Made by a program: the position numbers and the translations under genes. The notes beneath the pieces were generated by a model that saw only the letters and a list, made by a program, of their open reading frames with translations, did not search any database and was not told the DNA's origin. A stretch of DNA of 64,000 bases from Mycobacterium barrassiae (GTDB lineage: Bacteria; Actinomycetota; Actinomycetes; Mycobacteriales; Mycobacteriaceae): positions 62,001 to 126,000 of the forward strand of contig NZ_JACKUK010000014.1 in the NCBI RefSeq assembly GCF_025822765.1. Direction: 5' to 3'. Shown here piece after piece: positions 12,393 through 19,739 of the stretch (position 1 is its first letter; every line of letters starts with the position of its first letter).

Positions 12393-13411
12393 CTCCACGG
12401 ATCGTCGCTCTGGGGGGTGGGCACGGCCTCTACGCCACGCTGTCCGCGGCCCGCAGACTGACCCCGCACGTCACCGCCATCGTCACGGTCGCCGACGACG
12501 GCGGTTCCTCGGGCCGGTTGCGCAGCGAACTCGATGTGCTGCCCCCCGGCGATCTGCGAATGGCGCTGGCCGCGTTGGCATCTGACAGCCCGCAGGGCCG
12601 GCTGTGGGCGACCATCCTCCAGCACCGCTTCGGGGGCAACGGTGCGCTTGCAGGTCATCCGATCGGCAACCTCATGCTCGCGGGTCTCAATGAGGTGCTG
12701 GCCGACCCCGTCGCGGCGCTCGACGAGCTCGGCCGCCTGCTCGGCATCCACGGCCGGGTGTTACCGATGTGCCCGATGGGGCTCGAGATCGAGGCCGACG
12801 TCGCGGGTCTGGAATCCGACCCCCGGATGAGCCGGGTGATCCGGGGTCAGGTGGCGATCGCGACCACCGTCGGCAAGGTGCGCCGGGTGCGGCTGATACC
12901 GGGCGATCCGCCGGCCACCCGTCAGGCCGTCGACGCGATCATGGCCGCCGATCTTGTGGTGCTGGGACCCGGATCGTGGTTCACCAGCGTCATCCCGCAC
13001 GTGCTGGTTCCGCAGCTTGCGGCCGCCCTGCAGGCGACGACGGCGCGGCGGGCCCTGGTCGTGAACCTGGTCGCCGAACCGGGGGAGACGGCGGAGTTCT
13101 CCGCGGAGCGGCATATCCACGTGCTGTCGCAGCACGCGCCGGGTTTCACAATGCACGATGTGATCGTCGATGCGAGCCGTGTGCCCAGCGAGCGCGAACG
13201 TGAGCAGTTGCGCCGCACCGCCAGAATTTTGGATGCCCAAGTTGAGTTTGCCGATGTGTCCAGACCTGGTACACCTTTACATGACCCGGCGAAGTTGGCC
13301 GCGGCCCTGGAAGGTGTGAGGTTGCGCGGGACGGCGCCGCCGACGCCCGCAGCGCCGACTGTGCCCACACCGACAGCGAACGGACCGAGAGGTGACGACC
13401 AGTGGCGATGA
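12389..13411 (+). CDS. cuvA: YvcK-family cell-wall metabolism protein CuvA
   Basis: A 340-residue member of the YvcK/CofD-like family, corresponding to M. tuberculosis CuvA (Rv1422), which localises to growth sites and is needed for cell-wall synthesis and growth on certain carbon sources; homologues bind UDP-sugars. Visible motifs are [16 protein letters not shown] at the N-terminus, [12 protein letters not shown], and the family [12 protein letters not shown]. The C-terminal 30 residues are Pro/Thr-rich and probably disordered. ATG 12389 overlaps the rapZ stop; the last bases overlap whiA. Confidence 0.92.
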
Positions 13412-14385
13412 CAGCCGAGGTCAAAGACGAGCTCAGCCGCCTGGTGGTCAATTCGGTGAGTGCTCGTCGTGCCGAGGTGGCCTCACTGCTGCGGTTTGCC
13501 GGGGGCCTGCACATCGTGTCGGGACGGGTGGTCGTCGAGGCCGAGGTCGATCTGGGCATCATCGCGAGGCGTCTGCGCAAGGACATCTACGACCTCTACG
13601 GCTACAACGCGGTGGTGCACGTGTTGTCGGCCAGCGGGATCCGTAAGAACACCCGTTATGTGCTGCGGGTCGCCAAGGACGGCGAAGCGTTGGCGCGGCA
13701 GACCGGCCTGCTCGATCTGCGTGGCCGGCCGGTGCGGGGTCTGCCCGCGCAAGTGGTCGGCGGCAGCGTGGCCGACGCCGAAGCCGCCTGGCGCGGTGCA
13801 TTTTTGGCGCATGGTTCGTTGACCGAGCCGGGCCGGTCGTCGGCGCTGGAGGTCAGTTGTCCCGGGCCGGAGGCGGCGTTGGCGCTCGTCGGCGCGGCCC
13901 GACGACTGGGGGTCAGCGCCAAGGCCCGCGAAGTCCGTGGCGCGGACCGGGTGGTGGTGCGCGATGGTGAGGCCATCGGTGCGCTGCTGACCCGCATGGG
14001 CGCCCAGGACACCAGGTTGACGTGGGAGGAGCGGCGGATGCGCCGCGAGGTGCGCGCGACCGCGAATCGACTGGCCAATTTCGACGACGCCAACCTGCGG
14101 CGGTCGGCGCGAGCGGCGGTGGCCGCCGCAGCGCGAGTGGAGCGCGCGCTCGAGATTCTCGGCGATACGGTGCCCGACCATCTGGCCGCGGCGGGCAAGC
14201 TGCGCGTCGAGCACCGACAGGCGTCGCTGGAGGAGCTGGGCCGCCTCGCCGACCCGCCGATGACCAAAGATGCTGTGGCAGGCCGTATTCGACGGTTGCT
14301 GTCCATGGCCGATCGTAAGGCGAAACAGGACGGCATTCCCGATACAGAGTCGGCTGTCACGCCGGATCTGCTCGAAGACGCCTAA
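13402..14385 (+). CDS. whiA: sporulation/cell-division regulator WhiA
   Basis: A 327-residue WhiA homologue (Rv1423). It has the degenerate LAGLIDADG-type N-terminal domain (ending about residue 200, with [16 protein letters not shown]-like segment) and a C-terminal helix-turn-helix ([17 protein letters not shown], then RIRRLLSMA). In Streptomyces WhiA works with WhiB to control division genes. GTG 13402 gives MAMTAEV; the ATG at 13408 forms an ATGA overlap with cuvA and is equally possible. Last gene of the four-gene operon, followed by a strong hairpin. Confidence 0.94.
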
Positions 14386-14399
14386 TTCTCTGCCCCGAC

Positions 14400-14449
14400 T
14401 GCACGCTTGTTGTACTCATTCGTCGAGTAGCCGCGAAAACAAGCGTGCA
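14400..14449. repeat. two-tier hairpin between convergent genes
   Basis: A perfect 12-bp inverted repeat, TGCACGCTTGTT (14400-14411) and AACAAGCGTGCA (14438-14449), encloses a second one, TACTC (14413-14417) and GAGTA (14425-14429). It sits between the whiA stop and the stop of the convergent gene at 14460. It could terminate transcription from both sides, or be a copy of a mobile palindromic element. Confidence 0.7.
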
Positions 14450-14459
14450 CTCGAGGAGG

Positions 14460-14882
14460 TCAATCCGACATCTGCTGCAGCATGTCCTCGTCACCCTGCG
14501 ACAGCTGCTGCAAGAGCGTGGCGAGTTCGCGCTCTGTGCGGGTGAAGCTCTCAAACGCATTGAGAGCCAATGCATCTGACATGGCGGCTTCGTCGTGCGG
14601 CGCCATCGGTAGATCCCGGTAGCCGGCCATCTGTCGGGCGATTGCCGTCAATCGATCCGCGACGTCACGGTGCGCAACCACGAGTGCCGCATAGGCGTCG
14701 AGTTCGTGCCTGGCCTGAAGGTCATCGGGGTCGAGCGCTCTGGCGTGGACTTCGAGAATCGTTGCTTGCGCTGCAAACAACTCGCCGAGCTTGGCGGGCA
14801 GACTGGATCGGCTGGCCAAGCCCCGGCCGCAGGTCGATGGTTCGTCCATGCTTGGGGTCTGCCCGATATCGGCGGTACTCAA
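14460..14882 (-). CDS. hypothetical helical protein of the whiA-gap island
   Basis: A protein of 140 residues from TTG 14882, whose start overlaps the stop of the upstream gene (TTGA); ATG 14849 is a shorter alternative. After about 30 polar residues it is almost entirely helical (LPAKLGELFAAQATILEVHA, later FTRTERELATLLQQLSQGD), with no signal peptide or membrane helix. The acidic C-terminus DEDMLQQMSD is typical of a soluble interaction protein. No family recognised. Co-transcribed with the coiled-coil protein before it. Confidence 0.55.
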   Translation of the reverse strand: MSTADIGQTPSMDEPSTCGRGLASRSSLPAKLGELFAAQATILEVHARALDPDDLQARHELDAYAALVVAHRDVADRLTAIARQMAGYRDLPMAPHDEAAMSDALALNAFESFTRTERELATLLQQLSQGDEDMLQQMSD

Positions 14883-15205
14883 CCGTCGCGAAGGCTGATG
14901 ATCAGATCCTTGACTTCGGCGAACTGCTCGTCGACCGAGCGGAAGTTCGCTCGCGTCTCCTGGCGGAAGTCGATGAACTCGATCTTGAGTGCCGCCAGGT
15001 CCGTCTTGACGGCCGCGACATCGGTCTTGACGGCCGCGACATCGGTTTTGACGGCCGCAAGTTCGGAGTTGGCGCGCGCCAGACCAACCGAATGGTCCCG
15101 TTGGTTCGCACCGAGAGCGTTGACAGCGGATAGGACGGCGCGATAGTCGGCGTGCGAGGCCTCCAGTGCAGCTACCCGCGCTTCCAACTCGTCCATCCTG
15201 GCCAC
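14879..15205 (-). CDS. coiled-coil protein with heptad repeats
   Basis: A protein of 108 residues. After MARMDELEARVAALE, a first coiled coil, come four consecutive heptads of the form AAVKTDV (about residues 47-74) encoded by a 21-bp DNA repeat, then an Arg/Glu-rich helix (DFRQETRANFRSVDEQF). It resembles the small DUF1640-like coiled-coil proteins, but no firm family can be given. The GTG 15205 start is seven bases after TACGAT, suggesting a leaderless mRNA; ATG 15196 is the alternative. Divergent from the cyclase-STAND gene. Confidence 0.65.
   Translation of the reverse strand: MARMDELEARVAALEASHADYRAVLSAVNALGANQRDHSVGLARANSELAAVKTDVAAVKTDVAAVKTDLAALKIEFIDFRQETRANFRSVDEQFAEVKDLIISLRDG
14982..15065 (-). 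repeat. 21-bp tandem repeat encoding heptads
   Basis: Four tandem 21-base units at 14982-15002 (degenerate), 15003-15023, 15024-15044 and 15045-15065. The middle two are identical and the last differs in a few positions. Each encodes one seven-residue coiled-coil turn, so the unit length equals the structural repeat. Confidence 0.85.
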
Positions 15206-15212
15206 ACGCCTG

Positions 15213-15218
15213 ATCGTA
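15213..15218 (-). promoter_or_regulatory. -10 element of the coiled-coil gene pair
   Basis: TACGAT on the minus strand lies seven bases before GTG 15205, the leaderless spacing. Within the same 81-base divergent interval GATTCT lies six bases before GTG 15287 on the plus strand, a weaker candidate for the cyclase gene. Confidence 0.4.
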
Positions 15219-15286
15219 ACCGCATAAGGCCAACTCCTCCTGCAGCTATCCACAGGGTCGACCGCGTTCTGTGCGATTCTGTGCAG

Positions 15287-17929
15287 GTGTCCGCGGGGGA
15301 CCCGCCCACGGGTGTGGTCACGTTCCTGTTCACCGATATCGAGGGTTCGACCCGTCGGTGGGAGTCCGACGCGGACGAAATGCGGTCGGCGTTGGCCGCA
15401 CATGACAAGGTGTTGCGTTCTGCAATCGAAGCTCATGAGGGCTTCGTGTTCAGTCACAGCGGCGACGGGATGGCTGCAGCGTTCTCGTCGCCGATGGCCG
15501 CCATCGATGCGGCGATTGATGCTCAACGGGAGTTGCAGCTACCGGTCCGGATGGGTATCGCCACTGGCGAGGCCGAGTTACGCGACAACGACTATTTCGG
15601 CACAGTGCTCAACCGGGCGGCGCGGGTGATGGCTGCCGGCCATGGCGGGCAGATCCTGGTGGCCGAATCGACGGCCGGACTGCTCAGCGGAGTAGATCTG
15701 ATTGATCTGGGGTCGCGACGTCTGCGAGATCTGCCGAATCCGGTCAGGGTGTACCAATTGCAGGTGCAGGGATTGCGTTCCGACTTCCCGCCATTACGGA
15801 CACTCGACCCAACTCTTGGCAATCTGCGGCGTGCGACGTCGGCCTTCATTGGGCGAGAGGCCGAAGTTGCCGAGATCGCAACTCTGCTTCGCTCACGACG
15901 AATGGTCACGCTGACCGGTGTCGGGGGAGTCGGCAAGACCCGGCTCGCCGTCGAAGTTGCCGCGCAGCTATCGGGCGAGTTTCCAGACGGTATATGGGTT
16001 TTCGAGCTTGCCGCCGTCAGCGACCCCGTCGTAGTCCCGGAAGCGGTCGCGGCGGTCATGGGTATCACCCAGCAGCCTGGTCATACGATGACTGAGTCAG
16101 TCGCAGCCGCACTTGAGGGTCGACGCCGCTTGTTGGTCTTCGACAACTGCGAGCATTTGCTTGACGCGGTCGGGGATTTGGCCGAGGCCATTCTTGCCGC
16201 TTCGGCAACCTCAACGATCCTGGCGACGGGTCGTGAGGGTCTGGCGTTAGCTGACGAACAGGTCTGGCCGGTACGTTCTTTGAACGTCGATGCAGCGACG
16301 GAACTGTTCATCGAACGAGCCCGTCAGGTCGCCCCGACTCTGCAGATCGACAATGCGAACGTGGTCGCTGACGTGTGTCGACGGCTCGATGGAATACCGT
16401 TGGCCATCGAACTCGCGGCGTCGCGTATGTCGTCGATGGCCGTGGAGGAGATCCGTGATCATCTCGATCATCGATTCAAACTGCTTGTCGGTTCGCGGCG
16501 CGCCCTAGGACGTCACCAGACGTTACGTCAAGCTGTTGCGTGGTCCTACGACCTGCTAAGCGATGCGGAAAAGCAACTGTTGGAACGGTGTTCGGTGTTC
16601 GCGGGTGGATTCGACATCGAAGGCGCATGTGCAGTAGCTGGATTCGAGTCCGACAGCTACCACGTTCTGGACCTGCTCGACGCTCTGGTGCGCAAATCGC
16701 TTGTCATCGCCGAGCGGACGTCTGGGCGGACGCGGTTCTCGATGCTCGAGACGATCCGTGAGTTCGCCGACGAAAAGCTTGTGGACCACGGCGGCGGTGT
16801 CGAAGCGCGTGACGCACACGCCGGGTACTACGCGGGGCGCGAAGCCGAGATCATGGCGGTGTGGGACAGCCCACGTCAGCGCGAGACTTACCGTTGGTTT
16901 GGCACCGAGCTGTCCAACCTGCGCTCTGCATTCCGGTGGACCGCGGATCGGGAGCAGATTGATCCGGCCGCAACGATCGCCACGTACGCCGCATTGCTCG
17001 GCTTCTGCATCGAGAACTACGAGCCTGTCACTTGGGCTGAAGAACTGATCGAGACTGCCCGCGCTGTCAATCACCGCCGACTTGCGTATCTATGCACGAT
17101 GGCGAGTGGTTGCTGGTTCGTAGGGCGTCTCGAGGAGGCCGTCCGATACAGCGACTCCGGACACGCGGCGTTACGCACCAGTGCGGATGAAATTCCATTC
17201 GGGTTCGCGGGCATTTTGGGCAGTCCCTATCTAGCCATCGGTCAGCCCGACCAGGCAGTCGAGCAGTGCCGTACCCGCCTCGCAGAGCGCGGTAACAAGC
17301 ACCCGGTCATCGTGGCGGACTTAGTCATGTTCTTGACGATCGCAGGCCGCGATGAAGAGGCGATGGCTGCTACCGACGGCCTGCTCGCCAGCGCCGAGGA
17401 CACCAGCAACCCTTTTGCAGTGTCGTTGGCGCTCATGGCTTTAGGTTTCGCCTGGCGCAACGCGGACCCTGACCGCGCGCTGGCGGCGACGCGCAGGGGC
17501 CTCGCGATTGCCCGCGACAGCGGCAACCGTTTCAACGAGTCCCACCTGACCGCCAATCTGGCCCAGCTCGACGCCGAGCGTGGTGATCCGTTGTCGGCGC
17601 TGGACCACATCGGCCTCGCGATTCGTCATATGCACGATTCCGGCAACATCGTCACCGTTCGCTCGCCGCTAGCCAACCTCGCGATCTTCCTCGACGGGAT
17701 CGGACAGTACGAGGCAGCGGCTACCGTCGCGGGCTTTGCATTCAGTCCGCTGATGAGGGCGTCTTTCCCAAATCTCGAGGTTGCGGTCGCACACCTGCGC
17801 GGCGTTTTGGGCGAGCCGGCTTACGAATCGTTTGCTAGCAAGGGAAGGTCGATGACGACAGCTGCGATGGCGGCATATGCGTACGAGCAAATCGATCAGA
17901 CACGGGCTCAACTCGAACAACTACGGTGA
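15287..17929 (+). CDS. class III nucleotide cyclase fused to STAND ATPase and TPR-like region
   Basis: An 880-residue multidomain signalling protein. Residues 8-165 form a class III adenylate/guanylate cyclase: FTDIEGST gives metal ligand Asp17, SGDGM gives Asp60, and LNRAAR retains the transition-state Asn109 and Arg113; the purine-selecting lysine before SGDG is replaced, so the substrate is uncertain. Residues about 185-480 are an NB-ARC/STAND ATPase with Walker A GVGGVGKT (211-218) and Walker B LLVFDNCEH. The rest is helical and TPR-like. M. tuberculosis relatives (Rv0386, Rv2488c) end in a LuxR DNA-binding domain; this protein does not. A start at GTG 15281 is also possible. GC looks lower than its neighbours. 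Confidence 0.88.
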   Translation: MSAGDPPTGVVTFLFTDIEGSTRRWESDADEMRSALAAHDKVLRSAIEAHEGFVFSHSGDGMAAAFSSPMAAIDAAIDAQRELQLPVRMGIATGEAELRDNDYFGTVLNRAARVMAAGHGGQILVAESTAGLLSGVDLIDLGSRRLRDLPNPVRVYQLQVQGLRSDFPPLRTLDPTLGNLRRATSAFIGREAEVAEIATLLRSRRMVTLTGVGGVGKTRLAVEVAAQLSGEFPDGIWVFELAAVSDPVVVPEAVAAVMGITQQPGHTMTESVAAALEGRRRLLVFDNCEHLLDAVGDLAEAILAASATSTILATGREGLALADEQVWPVRSLNVDAATELFIERARQVAPTLQIDNANVVADVCRRLDGIPLAIELAASRMSSMAVEEIRDHLDHRFKLLVGSRRALGRHQTLRQAVAWSYDLLSDAEKQLLERCSVFAGGFDIEGACAVAGFESDSYHVLDLLDALVRKSLVIAERTSGRTRFSMLETIREFADEKLVDHGGGVEARDAHAGYYAGREAEIMAVWDSPRQRETYRWFGTELSNLRSAFRWTADREQIDPAATIATYAALLGFCIENYEPVTWAEELIETARAVNHRRLAYLCTMASGCWFVGRLEEAVRYSDSGHAALRTSADEIPFGFAGILGSPYLAIGQPDQAVEQCRTRLAERGNKHPVIVADLVMFLTIAGRDEEAMAATDGLLASAEDTSNPFAVSLALMALGFAWRNADPDRALAATRRGLAIARDSGNRFNESHLTANLAQLDAERGDPLSALDHIGLAIRHMHDSGNIVTVRSPLANLAIFLDGIGQYEAAATVAGFAFSPLMRASFPNLEVAVAHLRGVLGEPAYESFASKGRSMTTAAMAAYAYEQIDQTRAQLEQLR

Positions 17930-17933
17930 ACCC

Positions 17934-18644
17934 ATGGAGACGTTGAGAGTCGGTGCGGCCTTTCCCGATCCACCGTTCAACGGCATGCCGGACGATGGCG
18001 GTCTCGACATCGACCTGATGGCGGCAATCGCCGAGAAACTCGGTGCGACAGTCGAATTCATTTCCTATGACGGGCCTGACTTCAACGGTATCTTCGACGG
18101 GCTCGGATCGGCCTACGACTGCGTCACCGCCGGCACCACCGTGACACCCGAACGTGAGAAGAAGGCACGGTTCGTTCCGCCCTACCTCATCTCCGGACAG
18201 TCACTCGCCGTCGACACCAGGCGACTGCCCAACGTCACCTCCATCGACGACCTCGAAGGCCTGACCATCGGCGTGCAACAGGGCAACACCAGCCAGCCCA
18301 TCGCCGACAAGCTCGTCGCCGACGGCAGGGCCAAGGCCGTCCGGGTCTACGACTACGGGACCATTCGCACCGCGCTCACCGACCTGACCACCGGCGCATG
18401 CGATGCGTTCATGAAACTCGCACCCGTGCTGACCGAGCTCGTCAAGCCGATCCCGGGTGTCGAGGTGGTGCAGCGCGGCATCTCGGTCGAGCACATCGCC
18501 ATCGCGGTTCCCCTGCATGACCAGGCGCTACTGAGCCGCATCACCGTCGCCCAGGCCGAATTGGAAGACGACGGCACACTGCAGCGGATCCGGCGAAAGT
18601 GGCTGGGCAACCCGTATACGGATCAGAGTCTGGCCGTGCACTGA
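17934..18644 (+). CDS. solute-binding protein family 3, no signal peptide
   Basis: A 236-residue protein with the full type-2 periplasmic-binding fold for amino acids (SBP_bac_3): LRVGAAFPDPPFNGM at the start, then DIDLMAAIAEKLGA, TVTPEREKKARFVPPY and the ligand-lobe IGVQQGNTS. Homologues are exported, yet this one starts directly at the first strand of the fold with no signal peptide, lipobox or membrane helix, so it should be cytoplasmic. It starts four bases after the cyclase-STAND stop and so probably shares its transcript. It may sense a ligand for the cyclase; that is inference. Confidence 0.82.
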   Translation: METLRVGAAFPDPPFNGMPDDGGLDIDLMAAIAEKLGATVEFISYDGPDFNGIFDGLGSAYDCVTAGTTVTPEREKKARFVPPYLISGQSLAVDTRRLPNVTSIDDLEGLTIGVQQGNTSQPIADKLVADGRAKAVRVYDYGTIRTALTDLTTGACDAFMKLAPVLTELVKPIPGVEVVQRGISVEHIAIAVPLHDQALLSRITVAQAELEDDGTLQRIRRKWLGNPYTDQSLAVH

Positions 18645-18674
18645 CCAGCCCGCACGTGTCGACTGTCACAGCAT

Positions 18675-18680
18675 TAGGCT
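18675..18680 (+). promoter_or_regulatory. -10 element of the gap operon
   Basis: TAGGCT lies 36 bases before the gap GTG, giving a leader of roughly 30 nt that contains the ribosome site GGGAGA. No clear -35 box is visible. Confidence 0.4.
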
Positions 18681-18689
18681 GGCCGGTGA

Positions 18690-19739
<1,050 letters not shown>

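Follow-up and report, generated by a model that had tools for sequence, protein, structure and literature searches.

A solute-binding protein without a recognisable export signal between whiA and gap in Mycobacterium barrassiae

Solute-binding proteins (SBPs) are generally taken to lie outside the membrane and to be tied to transporters. The interval between whiA and gap in Mycobacterium barrassiae raises the question of what such a protein could be doing when its gene specifies no recognisable export signal, and of whether it belongs together with the genes around it. This interval lies in a stretch of 64,000 nt (hereafter the window; bases 62001-126000 of the 283-kb contig C14 in a genome of 5.9 Mb), and holds genes for the SBP, for a nucleotide cyclase joined to an NB-ARC ATPase of the STAND type, and for two small proteins, P3 and P4. 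A first-pass annotation, made from the sequence alone, had described these genes accurately: the cyclase gene is followed after four bases by the SBP gene on the same strand, the two small genes lie on the minus strand, and both flanks, whiA and gap, are borne out by Pfam. It had further proposed that the four genes form one linked module. The reading that we favour, with a joint probability of about 0.6, is a different one, namely that the SBP is a cytosolic, transporter-free ligand-binding protein with gap as its usual neighbour, that it is expressed from a leaderless promoter of its own, and that the other occupants of the interval turn over, the cyclase-STAND gene being a separate unit that lies upstream of the SBP in some lineages, and P3 and P4 being separate occupants as well.

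Stable and changing neighbours of the SBP gene

Two samples of loci were compared, i.e. the best 80 of 102 relatives of the SBP (the named loci, which together with the window SBP give the 81 sequences counted below) and 37 genomes of the same genus, the genome of the window included. Because several genomes are common to both (e.g. L105/G033 and L109/G013), the two sets are not independent. P3 and P4 were also searched for in 60 relatives. A close SBP orthologue is encoded in 15 of the 37 same-genus genomes (own included; one was matched in two pieces), and in 13 of the 14 other genomes, with 8-16 kb read per locus, it lies between whiA and gap; the exception is G023, in which the SBP is present and neither whiA nor gap was matched. 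Among these 14 loci the cyclase gene stands beside the SBP in G033 only, and P3 in G013 only. Of the 80 loci, 69 have gap no more than 1.7 kb downstream of the SBP (63 of them no more than 250 nt), and in 61 whiA is found upstream within the stretch read. At 11 loci, on the other hand, the end of a cyclase gene lies at most 150 nt before the SBP, any cyclase match being found in 12, while P3 is present at two loci (L109 and L173) and P4 at two (L164 and L165); no locus has both P3 and P4, and none of the 80 searched has all four genes. These counts rule out the four-gene module, and the claim of a linked set found no support. The four genes are no single signalling module: the SBP next to gap is stable, whereas the cyclase gene and the small genes turn over.

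The description of the site as variable held for its whiA side, as the occupants between whiA and the SBP are unrelated and differ among loci; in L113, for example, nitrilase-like and amino-acid permease-like genes were read by eye. In M. smegmatis, which we guess to lack an SBP there, the genes between whiA and gap are presumably MSMEG_3082 and MSMEG_3083. The former has been named a heme-binding protein and the latter a sugar epimerase (PMC4694148, in the part available).

The part of the first reading that found the least support is the link between the SBP and the cyclase-STAND protein. It was proposed that the SBP is a sensor subunit, which upon binding its ligand frees the STAND switch and thereby turns the cyclase on. 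The same strand and the 4-nt gap in the window agree with this, as do the adjoining cyclase genes in some other lineages and the catalytic and Walker residues kept in the cyclase protein (see below). However, in 68 of the 80 loci nothing matched the cyclase within the stretch read (the stretches of L152 and L169 hold less than 300 nt upstream of the SBP), and all 16 stretches that carry cyclase relatives elsewhere, one of them a 4-kb contig and one with a relative only 42% identical, are without an SBP, whiA or gap match. As the SBP in addition has its own conserved promoter box, and a serine occupies the substrate-specifying lysine position of the cyclase, we consider this arrangement quite unlikely.

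Promoter box, start and predicted location of the SBP

Boxes of the TANNNT type were sought upstream of 79 of the 81 SBP starts; L115 and L123 were dropped, as a start codon was absent near the aligned first residue. Such a box ends 6 or 7 nt before the start in 57 of the 79 (41 at 6 and 16 at 7), and all other 45 offsets together gave three matches. In M. tuberculosis, where leaderless mRNAs are frequent, 73% of primary start sites have a TANNNT centred 7-12 bp upstream (PMC3898074, in the part available). With the box at 6-7 nt, transcription would therefore begin at the SBP start codon itself, and the conserved sequence suggests that the SBP is transcribed from a leaderless promoter of its own. 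The box of the window, TACGGT, overlaps the last codons and the stop of the cyclase gene. A cyclase gene abuts the SBP at 11 of the 79 starts (10 named loci and the window), and the box is present in 11/11. In the eight complete abutting cyclase genes that could be read to the stop, the second-last codon is always CTA or TTA; these two codons make up 83 of the 1520 Leu codons (5.5%) in the cyclase genes read, and they hold that position in none of eight non-abutting cyclase genes. The abutting genes are related, so the 8/8 does not represent eight independent events. A promoter box inside the end of the preceding gene is a warning against reading operons from gene spacing.

In the window, the in-frame stretch upstream of the SBP is 26 codons long, contains one ATG at -19 and overlaps the cyclase gene. 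This extension failed a hydrophobicity test for a signal, which found one in 10 of 12 ordinary SBPs used as a control. At 43 of the 79 loci, the window not among them, there is no in-frame start codon at least 15 codons upstream, and a hydrophobic stretch within a 15-60-residue extension was found at 10 of the 79 (five probable lipoproteins and five beside gap). The pattern of a twin-arginine (Tat) lipoprotein is absent from 73 of the 80 homologues, including all 69 with gap downstream. Thus, the lack of a signal that had been read in the window is a family trait at whiA-gap, and the check for an export signal upstream of the start used gave nothing credible there, Tat signals being confined to other sites. 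No signal-less SBP at whiA-gap was recognised in a limited search of open-licence papers.

It could still be argued that the SBP is an ordinary transport receptor, which leaves the cytosol by a route that was not recognised or is translated from an upstream start that was missed: seven relatives have Tat-type lipoprotein signals, a permease encoded elsewhere may be served, and the ATG 19 codons upstream is in frame. Nevertheless, the test that failed here recognises most ordinary SBPs, more than half of the loci assessed offer no in-frame start far enough upstream, and the box at 6-7 nt favours a start at the first strand of the fold, which leaves export a small chance.

The seven Tat-type homologues all belong to the 11 loci without gap downstream, i.e. 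they lie outside whiA-gap, and they have the same named pocket residues. Five come from M. gastri, M. innocens, M. persicum, M. simulans and M. angelicum, and two from Smaragdicoccus niigatensis and a metagenome-assembled genome of the Nocardiaceae (in all L115, L117, L119, L122, L123, L155 and L160). In a tree with an outgroup, the two Tat-type groups fall in separate clades and the signal-less Rhodococcus sequences form the first branch, the support for the remainder being moderate (92/73); the root is unsure because the join of the outgroup involves long branches. Taken at face value, the tree would require at least three losses of the signal or two gains, and we make no choice between these. 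The window SBP stands near those of Mycobacterium sp. OAS707, M. neglectum and M. tusciae.

Several observations weigh against a cytosolic, separately transcribed SBP. The box is missing at 22 of the 79 starts, nine of which follow whiA directly (5-32 nt between matches), where the SBP may be read from whiA. The remainder are five probable lipoproteins (L117, L119, L122, L155 and L160, in which the box was sought before an internal codon and the true start is further upstream), three Rhodococcus loci, L097, with a cyclase gene about 100 nt upstream and a GGAGG leader, and four unexplained cases. The spacing between cyclase gene and SBP is nearly constant where the two abut, which may reflect a functional link in those lineages. 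As to location, seven of the 80 relatives are probable Tat lipoproteins with a twin-arginine and a lipobox-like N-terminus, and weak, unconserved in-frame hydrophobic stretches occur upstream at five gap loci (L109, L130, L133, L156 and L158). The cytosolic placement draws on the absence of a recognisable signal, and the lack of a nearby transporter on the finding that none of 38 matches to BPD_transp_1, the single permease family searched, lies on contig C14.

Fold, pocket and possible ligand

The SBP matches PF00497 (SBP_bac_3) with 81.2 bits against a cut-off of 26.4, and its model predicts a complete type II binding-protein fold with a first strand at residues 2-9, in agreement with the earlier description of a complete fold beginning at its first strand. 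In fold comparisons made with VIA-align 2, the structural alignment with AncQR gave 38% identity, and AncCDT-1 is among the best sequence matches (E 1.3e-37). With the family-3 amino-acid SBPs (GlnBP, LAO, AncQR) the protein shares the whole fold, the sequence, the carboxylate-binding arginine (Arg74, kept in 78 of 81 sequences) and the pocket threonine, which is kept too. It differs from them in that no export signal was found, no BPD_transp_1 match lies on its contig, and leucine (79/81) stands in place of the aspartate that in LAO binds the alpha-amino group. The label "amino-acid-type" is doubtful because of this leucine, as the pocket points to a ligand that is probably a carboxylate lacking a free alpha-amino group rather than a free amino acid. 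The opine-binding proteins OccJ and NocT also lack LAO Asp161, with Asn202 and Ser207, respectively, in its place (PMC5740067, in the part available); these, however, are periplasmic parts of ABC importers, while the present protein has leucine at that position and is signal-less.

The relation to AncCDT-1 suggests another possibility, i.e. that the SBP is an enzyme derived from a binding protein, as is the case for cyclohexadienyl dehydratase, with which it shares the fold and a clear sequence relation; a cytosolic location without a transporter would suit an enzyme. The general acid of that dehydratase, Glu173 (role and numbering from PMC7683729, in the part available), aligns with V165 in the window SBP, a position held by Val in 72, Ala in 6 and Thr in 3 of the 81 sequences. 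This rules out identity with cyclohexadienyl dehydratase; the SBP may catalyse a different reaction, and an enzymatic role as a whole appears improbable.

On the favoured reading, that of a cytosolic binding protein, the predicted two lobes would fold in the cytosol and close around a small molecule, with Arg74 holding its carboxylate; keto acids, N-substituted amino acids and other carboxylates are candidates. As no BPD_transp_1 permease was found encoded near it, the SBP could be a soluble sensor or a reservoir, and could signal to a protein partner that it has bound its ligand. The position next to gap-pgk-tpi hints weakly at a glycolytic carboxylate. It is possible, if doubtful, that this orphan family has moved between the surface, as a Tat lipoprotein, and the cytosol with its pocket kept, and that at whiA-gap it serves inside the cell as the receptor of a carboxylate that has no free amino group and may be produced by the adjacent pathway. 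If true, a conserved, transporter-free cytosolic SBP family with its own promoter opens the question of what this fold does inside the cell, and the exported relatives with the same pocket residues that of how a receptor changes compartment.

Two further observations concern the same protein. C63 and C156 (18120-18122 and 18399-18401) are present in 81/81 SBPs, each just before the equivalent strand of one lobe, and are missing from AncQR and AncCDT-1 in the alignments. The SBP also matches the phage-derived phrog_10776 (profile length 674) with E 7e-27; some phages may therefore encode a longer protein with an SBP domain.

The cyclase-STAND protein and other features

The cyclase protein contains PF00211 (residues 8-138) and NB-ARC (PF00931, residues 198-422), both above the Pfam cut-off, and its middle region also matches AfsR. 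These two domains of the earlier description stand, while the TPR-like region found weak support: TPR_12 matched the C-terminal part of 8 of 30 family members (E 0.01), the window protein itself being unmatched, which hints weakly at a TPR-like fold. The domain and the Walker motifs (K217, T218 and D286 in 30/30 members) mark it as a STAND/NB-ARC protein, with a weak repeat region. The absence of a LuxR domain from the C-terminus was confirmed, as the 30 members matched 15 families (E 0.01), none of them a LuxR family. Class III cyclases use two metal-binding aspartates, a transition-state asparagine and arginine, and a substrate-specifying pair; D17, D60, D102, N109 and R113 are kept in the window protein, and the lysine position is Ser56 (among the 30 members, 16 have Lys there, 13 including the window protein have Ser, and one has Ala).

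Mclx proteins have an NTPase domain in the middle, are about 1100 residues long and carry a LuxR domain; the window cyclase shares the central NTPase domain but has about 880 residues and no LuxR domain. Like the Mclx proteins of M. tuberculosis (Rv0386, Rv1358 and Rv2488c), it joins a cyclase domain to other domains (PMC4452763, in the part available). By its sequence, it is a LuxR-less relative of the mycobacterial Mclx cyclases, sometimes tandemly duplicated. Of 29 aligned relatives, 28 are 55-65% identical to it and one 42%, and the subfamily of about 880 residues occurs at many sites, some species having several copies in one genome. As a separate unit, the gene would have come to lie upstream of the SBP in some lineages and duplicated in tandem. 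Two or more tandem copies stand between whiA and the SBP in L095, L098, L100 and L108, mostly with ATGA- or GTGA-type overlaps; the last cyclase copies in L100, L102 and L110 align in pieces only.

The defence-like idea gained little, as PADLOC gave weak matches only: for the cyclase protein mad8 (E 0.006) and the Pycsar cyclase model PycC (E 0.028), for P3 two (E 0.0044, the best, and 0.045), and for the SBP and P4 none.

Table 1. Features of the whiA-gap interval (window coordinates)
Feature	Coordinates	Strand	Remarks
whiA, upstream flank	13402..14385	+	three WhiA Pfam domains above cut-off
inverted-repeat element, 50 nt	14400..14449	none	12-nt arms, 26-nt loop; 1 of 12 genome copies
P4, small protein, 140 aa from TTG	14460..14882	-	129 aa from ATG 14849; no Pfam match
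P3, small coiled-coil-like protein, 105 aa	14879..15196	-	
cyclase-STAND protein, 880 aa, possibly TPR-like C-terminus	15287..17929	+	no LuxR domain
TACGGT, TANNNT-type -10 box	17922..17927	+	predicted leaderless SBP promoter; inside end of cyclase gene
signal-less family-3 SBP, 236 aa	17934..18644	+	
gap, downstream flank	18717..19739	+	usual SBP neighbour; Pfam

The other features of the interval are listed in Table 1. P3 and P4 had been described as an overlapping pair, which is correct (4 nt) if P4 starts at its TTG and incorrect for the ATG, from which the overlap is zero. The P3 gene has four copies of a 21-nt repeat, and P3 was matched in 4 of the 60 relatives and P4 in none. P3-like genes also stand alone in unrelated neighbourhoods of several mycobacteria (L091, L092, L093 and L065), their N-terminus being conserved and their middle variable; matches of P3 to 10 PHROGs (E 1e-4 to 1e-2) were taken as coiled-coil noise.

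No RNA family of Rfam matched 14200-18800 at the gathering cut-off, the 50-nt inverted-repeat element included. This element, which stands outside the interpretation of the SBP, occurs in its 12 genome copies with at most 3 arm mismatches and a fixed loop length (a control pattern gave 0); several of the loops are alike, and the copies lie on contigs C9, C14, C16, C23, C25, C26, C27, C29 and C44.
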